Shown: positions 8,706 to 64,000 of the stretch, piece after piece
Layout of the letters: every line of letters begins with the position of its first letter
Numbering within the stretch: the stretch's first letter is position 1
Assembly (NCBI GenBank): GCA_036365145.1
Contig: JAEOAD010000052.1
Span: 12,833,501 to 12,897,500 of the forward strand
From: Orientallactaga sibirica
Taxonomy: Eukaryota; Chordata; Mammalia; Rodentia; Dipodidae
DNA: 64,000 bases
Direction: 5' to 3'
Translations under genes and position numbers: made by a program
The notes under the pieces: generated by a model
Seen by the model: the letters and a program-made list of their open reading frames with translations, nothing else
What the model was told of the DNA's origin: nothing
The model's database searches: none

Positions 8706-9300
8706 AACAAAAGAAGTCTTGATGTGTGGTCCCAAGTACCTGCCCTGGTCCACTTCATGTTCACTGCCTCGTTGGAAGCTCTACGTGTCCAGGGCTCTCA
8801 CTTACGTAGCCCATTTCCATTGCCGTCCCTCGGGTGGCACCCCACGCAGATCATCGACTTCCCTACATTCTTCATCTCCTCTCAGTCTACTGCACGAATG
8901 AAGGAATGAGATAGCTTACCCTCAGGGTAAATCTGCCCATGATTTCCAAGGCCCGTGGATCTGATCAAGGCAGGGAATCAGTGTGGGCAGAGTCCCTCCC
9001 ACGTGGGGCAGTTCAGGTGCTGACCATTGTAATGATTTAGGTGATGAGGAACAGAGTGAAGATGAACTGACATGGCATCCATGAAGCAGACACAGCAGCA
9101 TTGCCACAGGTCATTGATAAGGTCCTGGGTATTTTAGTGCTTGTGCCCACGAGTAACAAAGGCCCAGGTGGAAAGAGCTAAACGGAAGTGGTGTGGCGCT
9201 TCATGGAAGAGGCCTAGTGTGAGTTCATGTGGCCCTGGCATGGGTTCATTTAGCAGTGTATGACAGGTTCAAGGACAGCCACTCTACCTTCCTCAGGGTT
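8706..9300. other. unassigned sequence
   Basis: No recognised feature. It ends directly at the 60-bp minisatellite. Confidence 0.4.
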
Positions 9301-10080
9301 GGTGGCTCTGTCAGCTTCAGATCACTATGGAAGCTCTGGGTGCCTTCACACATGGCTGTTGATGTCTCCGTCAGCTACAGATCACTATGGAAGCTCTGGG
9401 TACCTTCACACATGGCTGTTGGTGGCTCTGTCAGCTTCAGATCATGATGGAAGCTCTGGGTGCCTTCACACATGGCTGTTGATGTCTCCGTCAGCTACAG
9501 ATCACTATGGAAGCTCTGGGTACCTTCACACATGGCTGTTGGTGGCTCTGTCAGCTTCAGATCATGATGGAAGCTCTGGGTGCCTTCACACATGGCTGTT
9601 GATGTCTCCGTCAGCTACAGATCACTATGGAAGCTCTGGGTGCCTTCACACATGGCTGTTGATGTCTCCGTCAGCTACAGATCACTATGGAAGCTCTGGG
9701 TGCCTTCACACATGGCTCTTGATGTCTCCGTCAGCTACAGATCACTATGGAAGCTCTGGGTGCCTTCACACATGGCTGTTGATGTCTCCGTCAGCTACAG
9801 ATCACTATGGAAGCTCTGGGTGCCTTCACACATGGCTGTTGATGTCTCCGTCAGCTACAGATCACTATGGAAGCTCTGGGTGCCTTCACACATGGCTCTT
9901 GATGTCTCCGTCAGCTACAGATCACTATGGAAGCTCTGGGTGCCTTCACACATGGCTGTTGATGGCTCTGTCAGCTTCAGATCACGATGGAAGCTCTGGG
10001 TACCTTCACACATGGCTGTTGGTGTCTCCGTCAGCTTCAGATCATGATGGAAGCTCTGGGTACCTTCATGCATGATTGTT
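9301..10080. repeat. 60-bp minisatellite, 13 units
   Basis: Thirteen consecutive units, each exactly 60 bp, share 'tcagatcactatggaagctc' and 'tcacacatggctgtt'. Two unit types exist: A ('ggtggctctgtcagcttcag') and B ('gatgtctccgtcagctacag'). They run A-B-A-B-A, then six B units, then two hybrids. A ...gctctt end variant recurs three units apart (9661 and 9841), suggesting a 180-bp higher-order duplication. Because 60 is a multiple of three and the units lack stops, a long frame (9260-10075) stays open; I regard that as a by-product. Confidence 0.97.
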
Positions 10081-28105: not shown

Positions 28106-29109
28106 CCAATATTTCAAGGCAGGGACACAGGGAAAATGTGGCTTTCCCACATTCAAGTAATTGCGTATGGGGGAAATTAAGTTACATACAGATCACTTCA
28201 TCCAGGCACATGACTTACAAGTCCACCAGGGCTATTCTTTCAGCTCTAAAACTTGAGATCTGCAAAGTAGATGCTTGGTATGTCTTGTGGTGGAGGAGGG
28301 CCACTGAGTCAAAGGCTTTTAGGCTGTGGCCCACAAATGGAGGGTCCATAGTTTTTATCTGCCCTCTTTTACAGGTCCTGTGAACCCCAATATTTAATAA
28401 CTTCTGCCATGAGATTACCCACAAAGTCAGTGGAAGGCTTTGCAAACTCCAGGCCCTTACTTCCTCCCCATGTCGGACCATCACTGTCCTCCTTCCCTTT
28501 ACCTGCTGCTCATTGCCTCGAGCTCACTCTGAGATGACCACAGATGGGGTGAAGACAGAGCCTGGCAGGCAGCGAAGCACAGGGTAGTCTGAGGATGAGC
28601 ACATGGGACTTCCACATCCGCCTGGAGATATTCTCTGAGAGATGACAAAATGGCCTTGTCATTAATGAGGTGGACATCTCCCCAAGGATAAATGGGCAGA
28701 AAAGATGGCATTTCCCTATCCCCTTTCTGACAAGACAGAAGCGTTTAACAGACTTAGAGAAAATCTGCAGGATAGGGTTCTTGGGTCTGCTTTAAACCTG
28801 TCTTGGGACGCTGGCAATCAGTGAAAACCATTTCAGGTGATAGAGTTGGATTAGCATCAAATGACAATGAAGTAATAATTCATCCCTTTGAAAGAATTCA
28901 GGTGGCTTCTCTTCTCCTTGGTAGTGCAGCCCATGAAGTTTTAGCGTTGTTAGTTATCAGATTTATAGGGGACTCACTGGTTGATTCTTAGCATAGGGAA
29001 GAGAAAGCTTTGCCTAAAAGAATAACTTAGGCCTGGCAATCTTCCTTTCTCTTCTCAGCAGGTCCTCACTACTGTTCAAAGAAGAACAGCTCTGTTGCTT
29101 TGGGCAGCA
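28106..29109. other. unassigned sequence
   Basis: 1 kb with nothing recognised. Open frames are short and featureless. Confidence 0.4.
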
Positions 29110-30513: not shown

Positions 30514-31968
30514 CCATGTAGCTCTTGACTCTGTCTCCTGTCTCTATCTACCAGTCTCCCCTTCTCCAGTCTGGACTTCTGGCTAGGACTGCCTCTAGGA
30601 GACCTGATAACCCTATGCTCTGCCCCTGTCTACTGTCAGGCTCTGTCACCCCTCAGTCCAGCCTTCTGGCCACTGCAGTGGGCTCCGAGTTCGGGTTCTT
30701 TGCTCTCTAATCTATAAGGAGTCCCTTCATGACAGCGATGGGCACTGTCTCCCTTCTCTGGAAGCTGCAGAGCTCTGCAGTGACCTGATCCCACTGGAAA
30801 CACTCAGTGTGCAAACAGTGTTCTGCTCGGCTTGTCTCCCAAGTCAGGTGGGAGGGTCAGTGGGGCGATGGGAGAATCGTAGGAGAACAGGTGCGCCCAC
30901 CGCCTTGTGGTCTGGTGCTTGTGCCTCTCCTCTGTGTCTGGGAAGGAGCCCAGAATTCCACTGGTCATCTCCAAATCGGAGCTGGGTGAAGTTGCATTAG
31001 AAAAAGGCCTAGCCAGACAGTTAAACATATTGGACTAAGAATGATGGTGAGAGAACAACATGCAGGCTTGGGATTAAGTCTGAGGTTTATAGTTTATAAC
31101 CATGCTGTTGAGGCTCAGATGAGTCAACTGGCTTCAGTATCTCAATCAATTAAACATATATATGGATTTCAAATACATACATGTCATATATATGTGTACA
31201 CATCCATATCTGCTGTGGAAATATTGTGAGGTTGATAAACCTGGTGGACAGGGTGCTCGTCAGAGGCTCGGTCTATCACAGTTTCCATTATTTAAGTCTC
31301 CTGGAGACACAATTTCCCAAGAGACCTATACTTTCTCCTTTGTCTTCTCAGGTTTCTGTGCCTCCTCCTCTTCCGCAGGGTGTAGCACACTGCAGCTCCA
31401 CACTGGTATTTCTCAGAGGCAATCAAGTTCCTTTACAAATGGTAAACAGGTGGTTTCTTGGTAAACAAAAAGCCGTGTGCTTGATTTATCCTGCCATCCA
31501 ACAAAAACGAAAGAGACAGCTTTTGATCCTGTACAATAGCGGCAAAGCCATTCTTACTGAACAATGTACTTCTGAGCTTGTCTCCCACATGGTGGTGGAT
31601 GGGGTAATGGCCCTGCAGACTCTAGTAAACGGGTGGCTCCCCACACTCTGCTGCAGGTCGTGTGTCCTGTGGGTCTGGAAAGCAAAAGCCCCAGACTGAG
31701 CACAGGGAAGAGTTTCCTTAGCTGTTTCGTGTGACATGGAGCATGTGACAGCCAGTCGTTCTATGTGTAATATCAGTTCTCTCGAGTCTCCCTTACATGC
31801 CCCAGACAGCCATAAGGAACGGTTCTCCTGCCCTGAGGCATGGTTCCTACACTGCAGAAAGACAGATTGATGCCAGGGTGTGGTAGGAAGGTGGAATTGT
31901 GAACCAACGGCAAGAGGTGATGGGCTGAGGCCTTGTGAATTCATTCCCAAGACCGTGGACTGACTTTG
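30514..31968. other. unassigned sequence
   Basis: About 1.45 kb without recognised repeats. Several 60-170 residue frames overlap on both strands, which argues against any of them being real. Confidence 0.4.
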
Positions 31969-32134
31969 CATGGAATGAATGAGTAATAAAATGGACAGTT
32001 ATTTATCTCATAGCTACTGCAGGCCAGGCATTTGCAAAAGAGATGGAGCATGGAATGAATGAGTAATAAAATGGACAGTTATTTATCTCATAGCTACTGC
32101 AGGCCAGGCATTGTTCTAGGCAAAAGAGATGGAG
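31969..32134. repeat. 80-bp tandem duplication of L2-like sequence
   Basis: Copy 1 (31969-32048) and copy 2 (32049-32134) share 'tggaatgaatgagtaataaa' through 'agatggagcatgga'. Copy 1 lacks a few bases around 'gttctagg' that copy 2 retains. The 'gccaggcattgttctaggc' segment resembles the L2 3' end, so the sequence is an old repeat duplicated just upstream of a minisatellite. Confidence 0.9.
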
Positions 32135-32154
32135 CATGGACAACACAGAAGCAA

Positions 32155-33652
32155 TGTCCTGCTGTCATCGCGGCTGTGTCCACAGGGGAGCACCGACAGT
32201 GGTCATCGCGGCTGTGTCCACAGGGGAGCACCGACAGTGGTCATTGTGGCTGTGTCCACAGGGGAGCACTGACAGTGGTCATCGTGGCTGTGTCCACAGG
32301 GGAGCACCGACAGTGGTCATCGTGGCTGTGTCCACAGGGGAGCACCGACAGTGGTCACAGCTGTGTCGTGGCAGTGTGTCGTGGCTGTGTCCACAGGGGA
32401 GCACCGACAGTGGCCATGATGGCTGGGAGCACCGACAGTGGTCATCGTGGCTGTGTCCACAGGGGAGCACCGACAGTGGTCATTGCGGCTGTGCCCACAG
32501 GGGAGCACTGACAGTGGTCATCACAGCTGTGTCCCACAGGGGAGCACTACAGTGGTCATTGTGGCTGTGTCCACAGGGGAGCACCGACAGTGGTCATTGT
32601 GGCTGTGTCCCACAGGGGAGCACCGACAGTGGTCATCGTGGCTGTGTCCCACAGGGGAGCACCGACAGTGGTCATCGTGGCTGTGTCCACAGGGGAGCAC
32701 TACAGTGGTCATCGTGGCTGTGTCCCACAGGGGAGCACCGACAGTGGTCATCGTGGCTGTGTCCACAGGGGAGCACTGACAGTGGTCATCGTGGCTGTGT
32801 CCACAGGGGAGCACCGACAGTGGTCATCGTGGCTGTGTCCACAGGGGAGCACTGACAGTGGTCATCGTGGCTGTGTCCACAGGGGAGCACCGACAGTGGT
32901 CATCGTGGCACCGACAGTGGTCATTGTGGCTGTGTCCACAGGGGAGTCAGTGGTCATCGTGGCTGTGTCCACAGGGGAGCACCGACAGTGGTCATCGTGG
33001 CTGTGTCCACAGGGGAGCACCGACAGTGGTCATCGTGGCTGTGTCCACAGGGAGCACTACAGGGAGCAGCACCGACAGTGGTCATGGCTGTGTCACAGGG
33101 GTGGCTGTGGTCATTGTGGCTGTGTCCACAGGGGAGCACCGACAGTGGTCATCGTGGCTGTGTCCACAGGGGAGCACCGACAGTGGTCATCGTGGCTGTG
33201 TCCACAGGGGAGCACTCAGCTGTGTCCAGGGGAGTGTGGCTGTGTCAGTGGTCACAGTGGTCATTGTGGCTGTGTCCACAGGGGAGCACCGACAGTGGCT
33301 GTGTCCACAGGGGAGCACCGACAGTGGTCACCGACAGTGGTCATCGGCTGCTGTGTCCACAGGGGAGCACCGACAGTGCACCGAGCAGTGGTGGCATCGA
33401 CAGTGGTCATCGTGGCTGTGTCCACAGGGGAGCACCGACAGTGGTCATCGTGGCTGTGTCCACAGGGGAGCACCGACAGTGGTCATCACAGCTGTGTCCC
33501 ACAGTGGTCATCGTGGCTGTGTCCACAGGGGAGCAGCAAGTGGTCACCCACAGGGGAGCAGAAGAAACAGGGAGCACTACAGTCCACAAGTACAAAGGGA
33601 GCCGAAGTGGGGAGAGTCAGTGGTTTTGGCCCACATCAACAGTGGTCATCTA
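32155..33652. repeat. 38-bp minisatellite, irregular
   Basis: About 36 imperfect copies of a unit containing 'tggctgtgtccacagggg' and 'agcaccgacagtggtcatcg'. The first two-thirds is fairly regular. From about 32890 on there are many partial units and odd junctions (for example 33048-33075 and 33205-33260), fading out through 33530-33652. Long open frames across it (for example 32590-33666) are products of the repeat and change frame from unit to unit because 38 is not a multiple of three. Confidence 0.95.
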
Positions 33653-34552
33653 ACTTCAGCTTATAGGGCTAACGTGCAAACATGGTAGAAAGTGATTTCT
33701 GATGTGTGAATGTGACAGCACGGGGGCTCCAGAAGGCAGGGTCCTAAAGCAAATGACTTCACAGAGCCTCACTTTACTCTCCCGTGAAGGGTGGAAAGTG
33801 GTGATGTGTCCTGGCAGAGCTGAGGAAGAGCCGCCCTGTGGTTCCTGTGTTGAATGCAGCACTCCAGTGAGGCAGGACATGAGTGGAGCCTGCAAGATGC
33901 CAGCAACCAGCCCAGCAGCTGCGAGAGAGGGTTGATCAGATGGTCCTCAGTTCTAATATGTTGTGATCTGTGGGCTGGAAAGTCCACCCAGAAAGGAGCT
34001 TGGGAGGGCAAATGAGCTTCAAATAGATCATCAGGCAGCATTCAAGGTATGTGACCTCACTTTGTGGCTTGCTTTCATGCCATAAGCCAACCTGGTCTCC
34101 CAAGTTAGGAACCTGGGAGTCAGCCTCACTCCCCCTCACCCTAAGAAGCAGCTAACACTTTTCCTTTAGCCCATCTCCTCAGTGTTCATCCTGTCCCTGC
34201 TCAGCTTGGTTCTGTCTCTCACTTGTCTGGATATAGTGACCACTGTTGCCATCTCCACTGCTTCCAGATCTGCCCTGTCTCACCAAGTCTCTGCCATGGT
34301 GACATCTGAGCTCAGTAAGATGCAAACTTCCAGCACTTGTCTTCAGAGCTGGTGCCTTCACCAGCCTCGGGATGGGAACCAGGAGCAGCATGAAGCCATA
34401 CCCAGCCCTGCCCCTTGCAGCATGGCAGCCAGCTGCCCCCACGCAGTGGCCCAAGAGGGAGAGAATGCACCAAAGCCACAGGATGGCTCTGTGCTTCTTA
34501 GAGAGCAGTCAGTGAGGGCATCATGGGAGCCCTGCGCTATTCATAGCGTCAT
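33653..34552. other. unassigned sequence
   Basis: No recognised feature. Confidence 0.4.
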
Positions 34553-41865: not shown

Positions 41866-43619
41866 CCTGACCAGGACTCAGACTCGATCCCACTCACATG
41901 ATCTGACCAGTACTCAGACTTGATCTCACCCCCATGATCTCACAAATACTCAGACTTGATCCCACTCACATGATCTCACCAGTCCTCAGACTCGATCCCA
42001 CTCACATGATCTCACCAGTACTCAGACTTGATCTCACCCCCATAATCTCCCCAGTACTCAGACTCGATCCCACTCACATGATCTCACCAGTACTTAGACT
42101 TGATCTCACTCACATGATCTCACAAATATTCAGACTTGATCTCACTCCCATGATCTGGCTAGTACTCAGACTTGATCTCACCCCCCATGATCTCCCCAGT
42201 ACTCAGACTCGATCCCACTCACATGATCTCACAAATACTCAGACTTGATCTCACTCTCATGATCTGACCAGTACTCAGACTTGATCTCACTCCCATGATC
42301 TCACCAGTACTCAGACTTGATCCCACTCACATGATCTCACAAATATTCAGACTTGATCTCATTCCCATGATCTGACCAGTACTCAGACTTGATCTCACTC
42401 CCATGATCTCACCAGTACTCAGACTTGATCCCACTCACATGATCTCACAAATATTCAGACTTGATCTCATTCCCATGATCTGACCAGTACTCAGACTTGA
42501 TCTCACTCCCATGATCTGACCAGTACTCAGACTTGATCTCACTCCATTATCTCACAAATATTCAGACTTGATCTCACTCCCATGATCTGACCAGTACTCA
42601 GACTTGATCTCACTCCCATGATCTGGCCAGTACTCAGACTTGATCCCACTCACATGATCTCACAAATATTCAGACTTGATCTCACTCTCATGATCTCACC
42701 AGTACTCATACTTGATCTCACTCCCATGATCTGACCAGTACTCAGACTTGATCTCACTCACATGATCTGACCTGTACTCAGACTTGATCCTACTCCCATG
42801 ATCTCACCAGTACTCAGACTTGATCCCACTCCCATGATCTGGCCAGTACTCAGACTTGATCTCACTTCCATGATCTCACCAGTACTCAGACTTGATCTCA
42901 CTCACATGATCTCAGCAGTACTCAGACTTGATCCCACTCCCATGATCTGACCAGTACTCAGACTTGATCTCACTCCATTATCTCACAAATATTCAGACTT
43001 GATCTCACTCCCATGATCTCACCAGTACTCATACTTGATCTCACTCCCATGATCTGACCAGTACTCAGACTTGATCTCACTCCATTATCTCACAAATATT
43101 CAGACTTGATCTCACTCCCATGATCTCACCAGTGCTCAGACTTGATCTCACTCACATGATCTCACCAGTACTCAGACTTGATCTCACTCACATGATCTCA
43201 CCAGTACTCAGACTCAATCCTACTCACATGATCTGACCAGTACTCAGACTTGATCTCACTCCCATGATCTCACCAGTACTCAGACTTGATCTCACTTACA
43301 TGATCTCCCCAGTACTCAGACTTGATCTCACTCACATGATCTCACCAGTACTCAGACTCGATCCTACTCACATGATCTGACCAGTACTCAGACTTGATCT
43401 CACTCCCATGATCTCACCAGTACTCAGACTTGATCTCACTCCCATGATCTCACCAGTACTCAGACTTGATCCCACTCCCATGATCTCACCAGTACTCAGA
43501 CTTGCTCTCACTCACATGATCTCACAAATACTCAGACTTGATCTCACTCCCATGATCTGACCAGTACTCAGACTTGATCTCACTCCCATGATCTCACCAG
43601 TCCTCAGACTTGATCTCCT
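41866..43619. repeat. 36-bp minisatellite, about 48 units
   Basis: The unit contains 'actcagacttgatctcactc' and 'ccatgatctcaccagt'. Variants (cccatg/cacatg; caccagt/gaccagt/cacaaat) are arranged non-randomly. For example a three-unit, 108-bp block around 'cacaaatattcagacttgat' recurs near 42333 and 42441. Each unit carries two GATC tetranucleotides. One unit is shortened ('actccattatctcac', three occurrences). Confidence 0.96.
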
Positions 43620-58865: not shown

Positions 58866-59194
58866 CTTCTTAGGTCTAACATTTAGTGGTAGCTGCTGAG
58901 CGGAACCATTTCTTCTGTCAGCGAGTTGTTATCAAGTACCATCAGTTATTAGTCAATTATTATCCAAGCAATGGGTTTGTGGGATTTCTGTCCACTTACT
59001 GACCACTTACATTTCAAAATGTGCTGCTGGGCTCGGCGCCTCCAGCTTCCTCCTTGTTCTTGAAGGCGTGGTTTTTCAGGTAGCGGTTATATGCTGCAGA
59101 TGCTCTCGTGCGTGGCCTGGAATCTCACGGCTTTCCCTCAAGCCTCCGTGTTTCTATGGTTGTCGTGAAGTGCTTTCCCAGGAACTTTACCATG
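58866..59194. other. unassigned sequence
   Basis: No recognised feature. Confidence 0.35.
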
Positions 59195-59430
59195 CATTTC
59201 GGTTTTCTAAAGCCCATGGGAGACACCTCCACCAAACCATTGCCAGCGTCATAATTTGGCCCAGTCAGAATGGGATCACCTATTTGCATTTCATTTCCTG
59301 TCTTACTCCTTTTTGGTTCCATGTCTTAGCTCTTGTGAACACTGCAGCCATAAACATGGCTGTGCATATCTATGGCCATAGAGTTCTTTTGGTAGAGACT
59401 CAGGTATGGTGCAGTCGGATCACATATGCC
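59195..59430 (-). mobile_element. LINE-1 fragment
   Basis: 'ggttccatgtcttagctctt', 'gaacactgcagccataaaca' and 'ctgtgcatatctatggccat' are antisense L1 text. Confidence 0.5.
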
Positions 59431-59433
59431 ATG

Positions 59434-59679
59434 AAAGTAAGACGAGGGTTGGGGAGATGCTCAGCGGTTAAGGGAGCTTGCTTGCAAAATCTTGATGGCC
59501 TGGATTTGATTCCCCAGTAGCCACATAAAGCTGGATGCACAAAGGGGCGCATGCATCTGGAGACTGTTTGCAGTGGCAAGGCGGCCCTGGCATGCCCATT
59601 CTCTCTTCTCTGTCTCTCCTTTCTCTCTCTAATAAATCAATCAATAAACATGTTTTTAAAAAAGAAAGTAGATGAGGGT
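59434..59679 (+). repeat. tRNA-derived SINE with TSD
   Basis: A sense copy: 'gggttggggagatgctcagc', 'gatttgattccccag', 'tggatgcacaaaggggcgca', 'cctggcatgcccattctctc' and a tail with AATCAATAAA. The flanks 'gaaagtaagacgaggg'/'gaaagtagatgaggg' are the target duplication. Confidence 0.9.
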
Positions 59680-59739
59680 GACCAGCACAAGGATGATAAG
59701 GGGTATGGTAAGGGCAGTAGAAGGTGAATAAGAAAAGAT

Positions 59740-59812
59740 ATTTATGTATATATATATATATGTGTGTGTGTATATATTTATATACATACATATATAATAT
59801 ATATGTGTGTGT
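59740..59812. repeat. AT/GT-rich microsatellite
   Basis: Alternating TA with TG interruptions. Confidence 0.9.
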
Positions 59813-59854
59813 TTTTTTTAAAATGTCACAGTGGAACATATTTCTTTGTACGCT

Positions 59855-60003
59855 AACAAAATTAATACTAGTAAAAATATCTATTGTTGGAATTGCACCA
59901 CATTTCAAATTTGCTCAACCTCAACAAAATTAATACTAGTAAAAATATCTATTGTTGCTCCTGCTAATTGCACCACATTTGGGCAAATTATTAGCTCAAC
60001 CTC
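59855..60003. repeat. imperfect tandem duplication
   Basis: Copy 1 (59855-59922) and copy 2 (59923-60003) share 35 identical bases starting 'aacaaaattaatactagtaa' and the order 'aattgcaccacattt' ... 'gctcaacctc'. Copy 2 has about 13 extra bases in three places. Confidence 0.9.
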
Positions 60004-60047
60004 AGACTTCATTTCTTCTCATGGGGAATGTGCAACTAGTGACTGAT

Positions 60048-60388
60048 GTGATGAACTAAAATTCAAAAGGTTTTTCTGACAGTTTTCCTGCTTCCTCCAG
60101 TAGAAGGCAATGTGACAGTATCAGTATTTGAAATCAAGGCACTTTTATGCTGATGGCTGGTGTCTCTAGTAATTCAATCAGTAAACAAATTTGCATATTT
60201 CTCTTGATGTTTATGTAATTATCATGAATTTCAAATTAATGTCATTAGTAATTACTTTTGGGTTTTAAAATTTGATGATTCTATATACTTAGCAAATTAC
60301 AGAGAAATAAACAACTAAATAATTGAGAAGGCTAGATTTGATCAGGGCTATTCTCTGCACCCCAAATCCAAAACCTTCCCAAGACAAC
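60048..60388. promoter_or_regulatory. candidate conserved non-coding element flanking the array
   Basis: A repeat-free block contains an octamer-like 'aaatttgcatatttct', 'ttatgtaattatcatgaatt', 'ttaatgtcattagtaattac' and 'gtaattcaatcagtaaac'. The spacing and word content resemble deeply conserved enhancers. Pieces of this same block reappear in order inside the neighbouring minisatellite (see findings). Confidence 0.35.
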
Positions 60389-63300
60389 ATGGGCCAGGCC
60401 TCCATCTGCCCCATTCTTCCTGACCGTGCCCCATCTTGTATGTAACAACATGGGCCAGGCCTCCATCGGCCCCATTCTTCACTTTGCATGGGCCAGCCTA
60501 TTCACCGTGCACCCGTATGTAACAACATGGGCCAGGCCTCCATCGGCCCCATTCTTCTTGACCGTGCACCATCTCGTATGTGCCAACATTATTTCCCATG
60601 GGCCAGGCCTCCATCGCCCCACAGATGAGGGCCAGGCCTCCAGCCTCATTCTTCCTAGTGCCCCAGTAACAACATGGGCCAGGCCTCCATATGCACCATC
60701 TCGTATGTAACAACATGGGCCAGGCTGCCCCATTCTTCTTGACTGAAACATGATGGAACTAAAATTCATGGGCCAGGCCTCCAGGTTTTTCCTGAAAGTA
60801 GTAACAACATGGGCCAGGCCTCCAAGATTCTTCCTGAGTCATGGGCCAGGCCTCCATCGCCCCATTCTTCCTGCTTCCTCCAGATGGGAATCGCCCCATT
60901 CTTCAGCCCCACCTTCATCATGGGCCAGGCCTCCAGCCCCATTCTTCACCGTGCCCCATCACATCTAACAACATGGGCCAGGCCTCCATCGCCCCATTCT
61001 TGAATCTCGTATGTAACAACATGGGCCAGGCCTCCATCGGCCCCAGCCCCATCTAAACATGGGCCAGGCCTCCATCGCCCCATTCTTCCTGTGCCCCATA
61101 TTAACAACATGGCCAGGCCTCCAGGCCCCATTCTTCCACCGTGCCCCATCTGTATGTAACAACATGGGCCAGGCCTCCATTGATGTTTATGTAACAACAT
61201 GGGCCAGGCCTCCATTATTCTTCATGCCCCAATTTGGGCCAAATTCTTCCTAATGTCATCTGTAACAAATAAATGGTGCACCATCTCATGTAACAAAACA
61301 AATATACAAAAGGCCTCCATCGCCCCATTCTTCCTGACCGTGCCCCATCTCGTATCTAATAACATGGGCCAGGCCTCCATCGGCCCCATTCTTTTGGGTT
61401 TTAACATGGGCCAGGCCTCCATCGGCCCCATTCTTCCTGATTCTGGTATGATGGGCCAGGCCTCCATCGGCCCCATTCTTCCTGACCGTGCACCAATTAC
61501 AGAGAAATAAACAATCGGCCCCATTCTTCCTGACGCACCATCTAAATAATCAGAAGCCAGGCCTCCAGCCCCATTCTTTGATGCCCCAGGGCTATTAACA
61601 TGGGCCACCTGACCGTGCCCCATCCAAATGGGCCAGGCCTCCAAACCTTCCCAAGACAACATGGGCCAGGCCTCCATTTGCCCCATTCTTCCTGGGCCAG
61701 GCCTCCATGCCCCATTCCATCTTGTATGTAACAACATGGGCCAGGCCATCAGCCCCATTCTTCTGGCCCCATTCTTCCAACATGGGCCAGGCCTCCATCG
61801 GCCCCATTCTTCCTGACCGTGCCCCATCTCTAATAACATGGGCCAGGCCTCCATCGCCCCATTCTTTCTTCTTGTATGTACAACATGGGCCAGGCCTCCA
61901 TCGGCCCCACCATGCCCCATCGTATGTAACAACATGGGCCAGGCCATCGGCCCCATTCTTCCTGACCGTGCCCCATCTCGTATGTAACAACATGGGCCAG
62001 GCCTTCATTCTTCCTGACCGTGCACCATCTCGTATGTAACAACATGGGCCAGGCCTCCATCCATAACAACATGGGCCAGGCCTCCATCGGCCCCATTCTT
62101 CCTGACCGTGCCCCATTCTTCAACATGGGCCAGGCCTCCACCATCTCGTATGTAACAACATGGGCCAGGCCTCCATCGGCTCCATTCTTCCTGACCGTGC
62201 ACCATCTCGTATGTAACAACATGGGCCAGGCCTCCATCGGCCCCATTCTTCCTGACCGTGCACCATCTCGTATGTAGCAACATGGGCCAGGCCTCCATCG
62301 GCCCCATTCTTCCTGACCGTGCACCATCTCGTATCTAATAACATGGGCCAGGCCTCCATCGGCCCCATTCTTCCTGACCGTGCCCCATCTCGTATCTAAT
62401 AACATGGGCCAGGCCTCCATGGTTATGCCCCAGTAATAACATGGGCCAGGTTGATTCTTCCTAGTAATTTATTTTTAACAACATGGGCCAGGCCTCCATC
62501 GGCCCCATTCTTCCTGACCGTGGCGCCATCTTATGTAGCATCATGGGCCAGGCCTCCATGCTCCATTCTTCCTGAAAGTTCAACATGGGCCAGGCCTCCA
62601 TCGGCCCCATTCTTCCTGACCGTGCACCATCTCGTATGTAGCATCATGGGCCAGGCCTCCATCGGCTCCATTCTTCCTGACCGTGCACCATCTAATGTAA
62701 CAACATGGGCCAGGCCTCCATCCCATTCTTCCTGAGTGCACCATCTTGTTAATCATGGGCCAGGCCTCCATGCCTCCATTCTTCCTGACACCATCTCCAA
62801 CATCCCCATTCTTCCTGACCGGTATGTAGCATCATGGGCCAGGCCTCCATCATTCTTCCTGACCGTGCAGCCCCAAGACCGTGCCCCAGGTATCTAATAA
62901 CATGGGCCAGGCCTCCATCGGCCCCATTCTTCCTGACTGTGCCCCATCATAACATCCTCATGAATGAGCCCCATTCTTCTTGGCCATCTCTGTAACAACA
63001 TGGGCCAGGCCTCCATCGCCCCATTCTTCCTGGCCATCTCTTGCACCATCTGCTTAACAACATGGGCCAGGCCTCCATCAGCCCCATTCTTCCTGACCGT
63101 GCACCATCTCGTATGTAGCATCATGGGCCAGGCCTCCATCGGCTCCATTCTTCCTGATCGTGCCCCATCTCGTATCTAACAACATGGGCCAGGCCTCCAT
63201 CGGCCCCATTCTTCTTGACCGTGCCCCATCTCGTATGTAACAACATGGGCCAGGCCTCCGGTGCACCATCTCGTATGTAGCATCATGGGCCAGGCCTCCA

Positions 63301-63497
63301 TCGGCTCCATTCTTCCTGAGTCCCATGGGCCAGGCCTCCATCGGCCTCATTCTTCCTGAGTTTGCACCATTATCTAACAACATGGGCCAGGCCTCCATCG
63401 GCCCCATTCTTCCTGACCGTGCACCATCTCGTATGTAACAACATGGGCCAGGCCTCCATCGGCCCCATTCTTCCTGACCGTGCCCCATCTCGTATCT
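60389..63497. repeat. 61-bp minisatellite with two flank-mosaic zones
   Basis: The regular unit is 61 bp and contains 'aacatgggccaggcctccat', 'cggccccattcttcctgacc' and 'gtgcaccatctcgtatgta'. Clean units dominate at about 62150-62420 and 63060-63497. At 60756-61660 and 62421-62969 units are truncated and interleaved with words from the unique 5' and 3' flanks, in flank order. Because 61 is not a multiple of three, every frame is visited in turn, and the many short open frames here are not genes. Confidence 0.95.
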
Positions 63498-63504
63498 GCT
63501 TCTT

Positions 63505-64000
63505 TAGGGAGGTGGTTATCAGTATGTTGATTCCTAGTAATTTATTTTTAGGAGCTCTTATGTTAAATGTCCCTAAAGTTCAAGGGTGTACTCCTTGGCT
63601 ATTGACCAATTAATTGAAGGCTATCTATAGGCTTGTTAATCAAGGTTCTGATCTTTACATTTCCATATCCCCAGGGGTATGAGGCAGTCATCTCTCGGTA
63701 GAAGGAGGAGGAGAAATTCGTACTGTGTCATTCCTCATGAATGAGCTTGGCTCTGCCTAGACAAGGACTCTTGTGCTTCTGGGTGTCAGCACTGGACACT
63801 CGGCATAGCATGGACCCAGGGTCCACGTTGACTCGGACCTGAGTCCCTTTGCCCACGAGTTTTCAGCATTCAGTTATGGAAATCAGTACAGATCAGGAGC
63901 AAGGCAGCCTTTTGTTCTGGTGGGTAGGTAGCTAGGGACTGGCCCCTGGAAAGATGGATGCCACCTTGCCTGCTCTGGCAAGACTAGAACCCAGGTCTGA
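63505..64000. other. unassigned 3' flank of the array
   Basis: Unique-looking sequence starting 'gggaggtggttatcagtatg'. Its first 240 bases are echoed inside the array. No gene was recognised. Confidence 0.4.

Follow-up and report, generated by a model that had tools for sequence, protein, structure and literature searches.

Results

Organization of the locus

Near the end of the 64,000-nucleotide window, as we call the whole stretch of Orientallactaga sibirica DNA analysed here, lies a minisatellite array in which 61-bp units follow one another head-to-tail (Table 1). The unit, CATGGGCCAGGCCTCCATCGGCCCCATTCTTCCTGACCGTGCACCATCTCGTATGTAACAA, is accompanied by two further common variants, and 53-55 unit cores can be counted across the array. 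The core of the unit is GC-rich and the flank is AT-rich. According to the repeat finder, 62139-62420 is regular, with 4.6 copies of the unit, 97% matches and no indels, and a second regular stretch spans 63055-63258. In most of the array outside these two stretches, the units are cut and re-joined, ragged and in many cases partial.

Upstream of the array, the 5' flank carries a duplication of its own, in which 59855-59889 recurs as 59923-59957, 59891-59905 as 59966-59980 and 59913-59923 as 59994-60004, with offsets rising from 68 to 75 and 81. As for the remaining content of the window, no Pfam family reached the cut-off in the 7 ORFs searched of the 18 listed, where one sub-threshold match was obtained, and no Rfam family reached its gathering score. 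SINE copies in the window are presumably of the jerboa-family type.

Table 1. Features of the 61-bp minisatellite locus, in window coordinates.
Feature	Position	Strand	Remarks
Partial duplication with small indels, 5' flank	59855..60004	+	Three copied pieces
Continuous 5'-flank copy, to just beyond the array edge	60040..60388	+	Source of the left-side words
61-bp minisatellite array	60384..63497	+	Unit variants ending GTAACAA, CTAATAA, GTAGCAT
Left threaded zone	60740..61660	+	5'-flank words in order among array pieces; 10 words of at least 9 bp
Second flank/array boundary copy	61643..61677	+	35 bp identical to 60371-60405
Array centre	61662..62420	+	Free of ordered words of the 5' or 3' flank
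Right threaded zone	62420..63324	+	3'-flank words in order among array pieces
Right-zone word starts	62420, 62458, 62529, 62575, 62745, 62802, 62955, 63315	+	In this order: TGGTTAT (source 63513), TTCCTAGTAATTTATTTTTA (63531), TCTTATGT (63556), AAAGTTCAA (63575), CTTGTTAATCA (63632), ATCCCCA (63667), TCCTCATGAATGAGC (63732), CCTGAGTCCC (63838)
Continuous 3'-flank copy	63513..63847	+	Source of the right-side words

The 5' flank is threaded in order through the left part of the array

A preliminary description of this DNA had reported nine words of the 5' flank that recur, in the same order, inside the array. All nine were found again, eight of them exactly as described (flank/array starts 60053/60756, 60085/60868, 60204/61180, 60255/61391, 60295/61495, 60315/61542, 60343/61587 and 60371/61643). 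The presence of the remaining word, TAATGTCAT, in the array was borne out, but its flank copy starts at 60237, one base before the reported 60238; likewise, the words had been called unique, and CAGGGCTATT has one further copy in the window, at 28227. By word coordinates, 336 bp of the 5' flank are spread over 905 bp, as had been estimated. The point at which the threaded flank re-enters the array is the second boundary copy listed in Table 1.

Order was quantified as a chain of exact words of at least 7 bp shared by flank 59830-60376 and array 60400-61662. The forward chain amounts to 157 bp against 77 bp in reverse order, in agreement with the reported conservation of order, and it is reached by none of 300 dinucleotide shuffles (maximum 85) and by none of 116 controls, each a piece of real sequence of 547 bp taken from the window (maximum 82). 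When the whole array was used, none of 115 controls reached the 5' chain (maximum 104). The gapped score of the left zone, which was chosen by the analyst, is 336, compared with at most 223 in 175 controls. Three of the 15 words in the chain, namely those before 60740 (TGCACCA twice and TTCTTCT), fit array units too, and therefore the threading on the left is shown only from 60740 on.

Among longer words, 59000-60376 has 19 matches of at least 9 bp to the array, ten arising from 59830-60376 and nine from 59000-59829. Nine of the former ten are in order, while the tenth (CTAGTAATT, at 62461) lies within a longer word of the 3' flank; the nine from 59000-59829, 9-10 bp in length, are scattered, as expected by chance. 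The exact flank words include lengths of 13-20 bp. Against the centre and the right part of the array, the chain scores of the 5' flank remain at shuffle level. At 59923 the offset of a copied piece from its source is 68; by 60756 it has risen to 703 and by 61643 to 1272, as would be expected if a shorter version of the locus slips out of register.

We rejected a simple flank duplication because array text stands between the words and the word-to-source offset varies word by word; the preliminary description had also stated that no ordinary duplication interleaves in this way.

The 3' flank is threaded through the right part of the array

The pattern has a second half, lying beyond what had been described before: words of the 3' flank stand in their original order among array pieces in 62420-63324. 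Between 63500-64000 and the whole array there are five matches of at least 9 bp, all of which fall in the right zone and all of which are ordered. The 3' chain consists of eight words summing to 87 bp; in the right zone, which was picked after the words had been seen, none of 300 shuffles (maximum 79) and none of 116 controls (maximum 77) reach it, and in the whole-array test 12 of 115 controls do. The gapped score of the same zone, again as picked after the words had been seen, is 247, compared with at most 183 in 177 controls. On this side the offset falls from 1093 to 523. By word coordinates, 335 bp of the 3' flank are spread over 905 bp, and we take the equal spread on both sides as a coincidence, set by the end words.

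Each flank keeps to its own side, ordered words of the 5' flank being confined to the left part of the array and those of the 3' flank to its right part, and a flank scored against the opposite zone or the centre gives gapped scores of just 114-157. This confinement argues against several real insertions accumulated over time, whether pieces of the array entered the flank or pieces of the flank entered the array, as might happen with polymerase-theta filler DNA at repeated breaks. In favour of such a history, the array is ragged and has many partial units, like unstable minisatellites. Independent events, however, are not expected to preserve the order of nine words on the left and eight on the right, to leave continuous copies of the flanks outside the array or to restrict the words of each flank to one side, and we regard such a history as extremely unlikely.

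Chance matches in low-complexity sequence were weighed against the same data. Single words of 7-9 bp do arise randomly, the nine scattered words of 9-10 bp from further upstream (59000-59829) are of this kind, and the whole-array 3' chain is within reach of some controls. The 5' chain of 157, in contrast, stands against control maxima of 82 (window stretches) and 104 (whole array), the gapped scores exceed all control values on both sides, and the words extend up to 13-20 bp. Chance was rejected for the 5' side by the chain and gapped-score controls, and its probability as an account of the pattern is close to negligible.

An unconstrained decoder, which accepts flank segments of at least 8 bp and imposes no order, recovered 11 segments of the 5' flank and 6 of the 3' flank; order was broken in 10 of the 55 pairs formed by the former and in 6 of the 15 pairs formed by the latter. 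The out-of-order segments are 9-11 bp long; one of them (61232) has an in-order parse in the gapped alignment, and no such parse exists there for those within 61266-61310. The AT-rich text of this last interval (CAAATAAATG, AACAAATATACAAAAGG) matches neither the unit nor any in-order position of the flank.

Fine structure of the junctions

In the gapped alignment, array pieces of 3-6 bp break up the flank text, as exemplified by 61222-61259 and 62420-62477. The first of these intervals reads TCATG[cccc]AATTT[gggc]CAAAT[tcttcc] followed by TAATGTCAT, where the flank itself has tcatgaatttcaaattaatgtcat. From 62420, the sequence reads TGGTTAT[gccc]CAGT[aataac]AT[gggccag]GTTGA[ttc] followed by TTCCTAGTAATT, where the flank has tggttatcagtatgttgattcctagtaatt.

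The 15 words of at least 9 bp possess 30 edges, 22 of which adjoin clean array and are thus testable; among these 22 is the place where the flank itself meets the array. At every one of the 22 testable edges at least one base fits both flank and array, the overlap ranging from 1 to 7 bases with a mean of 2.55, so that at these edges the sequence changes source only after a position at which the two agree. Random blunt joins have a mean of 0.65 shared bases and 57% zeros, and among 20000 resamples none reached a mean of 2.55 and none lacked a zero. Additionally, the joins placed by the decoder avoid the unit core (phases 3-12), where, among 103 array segments, only 4 begin and 6 end, compared with 16.9 expected for each.

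Microhomology of 1-7 bp at all testable edges is also predicted if the stretch is real DNA, written by a polymerase that, in an MMBIR/FoSTeS-like process primed by microhomology, switched repeatedly between the flank and a misaligned array of the sister or homologue while moving always forward on both templates. The exactness of the flank words is likewise what a recent event of this type would leave. Such an origin would nevertheless require a minimum of about 30 switches, since every one of the 15 words of at least 9 bp needs two, and perhaps more than 100, given the 82 and 80 blocks of a permissive alignment, whose numbers are inflated by chance matches. All of them would have to run forward, on both flanks and with excursions of 3-6 bp. 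Jumps free of a single forward order, which MMBIR/FoSTeS would predict, are not what the data contain (157 forward against 77 reverse; nine of ten and five of five words ordered), and blunt junctions, commonly found in such events, occur at none of the 22 edges. Repeated template switching is therefore very unlikely in our judgement, and it is equally doubtful that the sequence is a real germline allele for which a polymerase, going forward on both templates, passed back and forth dozens of times between the minisatellite and the adjoining flanks and so left an ordered interleave at either side of the array. The number of forward-only switches is in line with the earlier opinion that a biological origin of this kind is much less economical.

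Other tandem arrays in the window

The same chain analysis was applied to three further arrays. The flank chains of the 60-bp array (9298-10068) are unremarkable, being reached by 19 of 115 controls on the 5' and 19 of 115 on the 3' side, and so are those of the 36-bp array (41870-43617), reached by 84 and 16 of 115 controls, respectively; the repeat finder reports 0% indels in both arrays. In the 38-bp array (32164-33546) the 5' chain is reached by 111 of 115 controls. Its 3' chain of 76 is reached by none of 115, but the reverse-order 3' chain is 73, which is so near the forward value that common composition, not order, accounts for it.

The surroundings of this ragged 38-bp array have peculiarities of their own. 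Just to its left, 31968-32140 contains a 65-bp exact direct duplication followed by one of 21 bp, with offsets of 80 and 86, alike in kind to the duplication at 59855-60004. On the opposite side, at 33535-33660, the 3' edge of the array grades into flank mixed with array-like pieces, such as ACAGGGAGCACTACAG at 33567, which is repeated at 33047. No clean copy of the flank was found beside 33535-33660, and the chain test gave no order there.

Simulated alignment and consensus

The behaviour of an aligner was simulated by unit-cost global alignment of one read per error level against a backbone of 55 units. With a read of 12 units, 549, 446, 507, 463 and 598 flank bases, both sides summed, were placed into the array at 0, 1, 5, 10 and 15% error, respectively, the alignment at zero error being tied in cost with the correct one. 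The aligner thus smeared the flank unprompted at all five levels for 12 versus 55 units, with one read each. With a 30-unit read, between 0 and 49 flank bases entered the array (nonzero at three of the five levels), and with a 45-unit read none did at any of the five. The aligner spreads the flank because the missing length is paid for as gaps in any case, so that spreading costs little or nothing.

The passage from alignment to printed sequence is the weaker step of the account. Exact partial-order alignment (POA) over the whole length produced no smear in any of 8 runs. Windowed noisy POA (36 runs) yielded ragged arrays with at most four 5' and three 3' flank segments, and largest chains of 89 (5') and 74 (3'), compared with 163 and 94 observed by the same measure. 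In low-depth graph consensus, strong ordered threading appeared in 1 of 42 runs, six of which were long-only controls, and on one side only. When the short version had 12 units, 7 of 144 runs gave a clear excess of ordered words on a flank, and in 1 of the 144 both flanks had at least three 9-bp words; with a 40-unit short version, ordered excess appeared in none of 12 runs. The word edges in the seven simulated cases share a mean of 1.26 bases (39 edges), below the observed 2.55. Forced-alignment merges with unit costs and simple printing rules never matched cores and words together.

A closer match was given by an affine merge, in which flank pieces were aligned to clean units (scores 2, -4, -4, -1), 85% of gap stretches were kept and the flank was taken in 50-70% of disagreements. 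This merge was fitted, its setting being one of 18 per side, or two of 18 if both flank shares are counted apart, with 15 replicates each. On the left it gave scores of 348-390, chains of 141-165, 6.9-8.6 words of at least 9 bp and 17 cores, where the observed values are 336, 163, 10 and 18. On the right, scores of 237-251, chains of 74-83, 4.1-4.9 such words and 15 cores compare with 247, 87, 5 and 17. Score and chain of both zones are hence within about 16% of the observed values, with fewer words; the merged sequences exceed the observed length by about 10%, and their longest words measure 14-16 bp versus 20 bp observed. Taken together, the full consensus procedures left the pattern absent or rare, and the fitted affine merge alone matched it. 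In these models, the pattern can arise when such an alignment is printed as one sequence.

Discussion

Our results point with high confidence to 59.85-63.86 kb being a chimeric consensus that combines a short-array and a long-array version of a single locus, as judged from sequence and simulation rather than from reads. In keeping with this, the interleaved stretch is probably not real DNA. The short version likely has about 12-16 units and the long version at least 50. The preliminary description had proposed a gapped alignment of two different sequences printed as one consensus. Both the sequence and the simulations favour that proposal, and four features not included in it add to its support, namely the 3'-side pattern, the word-free centre, the shared bases at the junctions and the array inserts of 3-6 bp. 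The "two different sequences" are most likely short-array and long-array versions of the same locus, which may be alleles; misplaced reads or a paralogue may instead have supplied them.

The following sequence of steps would give rise to the chimeric consensus. The array of the short version would have been laid onto the middle of the array of the long version, and both flanks of the short version would then have been forced into base-by-base gapped matching against array units. At columns in disagreement, the consensus would have printed the flank at some and the array at others, and the unit core would have been left mostly whole because AT-rich flank has few matches in the GC-rich core. In this regard, GAACTAAAATTCA followed directly by TGGGCCAGGCC exemplifies an interleave that would be expected from merging and not from clean versions.

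The centre of the array would correspond to the portion common to both versions of the locus. The units in 61662-62139 are cut too, and 61656-62420 has 47.8 bp per core compared with the 61-bp unit. The centre also looks as if it were a merge of two out-of-register arrays.

Ordered flank words stand out on the 5' side against the controls, and on the 3' side through all five matches and the within-zone scores. Column-by-column alignment leaves just these marks, in that both sequences retain their order, the two share a base wherever one gives way to the other, and inserts of any small size occur. A chimeric consensus is, with high confidence in our assessment, by far the most economical account of the locus.

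Long-read assemblies are known to suffer collapses, expansions and false duplications at VNTRs. The present locus resembles VNTR consensus and haplotype-merging errors in such assemblies in its two array lengths, ragged units and disturbed adjoining flank. The titles and abstract openings of the literature surveyed contained no mention of an order-preserving interleave of both flanks. Complex rearrangements of the MMBIR/FoSTeS type consist, as here, of short templated pieces joined at microhomology; to our knowledge, the known cases have far fewer switches and do not advance strictly forward along two templates simultaneously. Also comparable are the templated insertions that arise at double-strand breaks, most of which are reported to be about 5-34 bp and to be templated inverted duplications (PMC11724301). 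Their pieces are similar in size to the threaded words at this locus, although the latter have direct orientation, keep their order and extend across about 0.9 kb per side.

For the organism, biological meaning should be withheld from about 59.85-63.86 kb pending a check of the reads. If our interpretation is true, the locus would provide a recognisable error signature, in which unique words of both flanks recur within an array, each on its own side and in the original sequence, with a shared base at each switch. Such a signature would be searchable mechanically in assemblies, marking loci that probably have two very different array lengths, and would serve as a warning against taking arrays of this kind for complex rearrangements.
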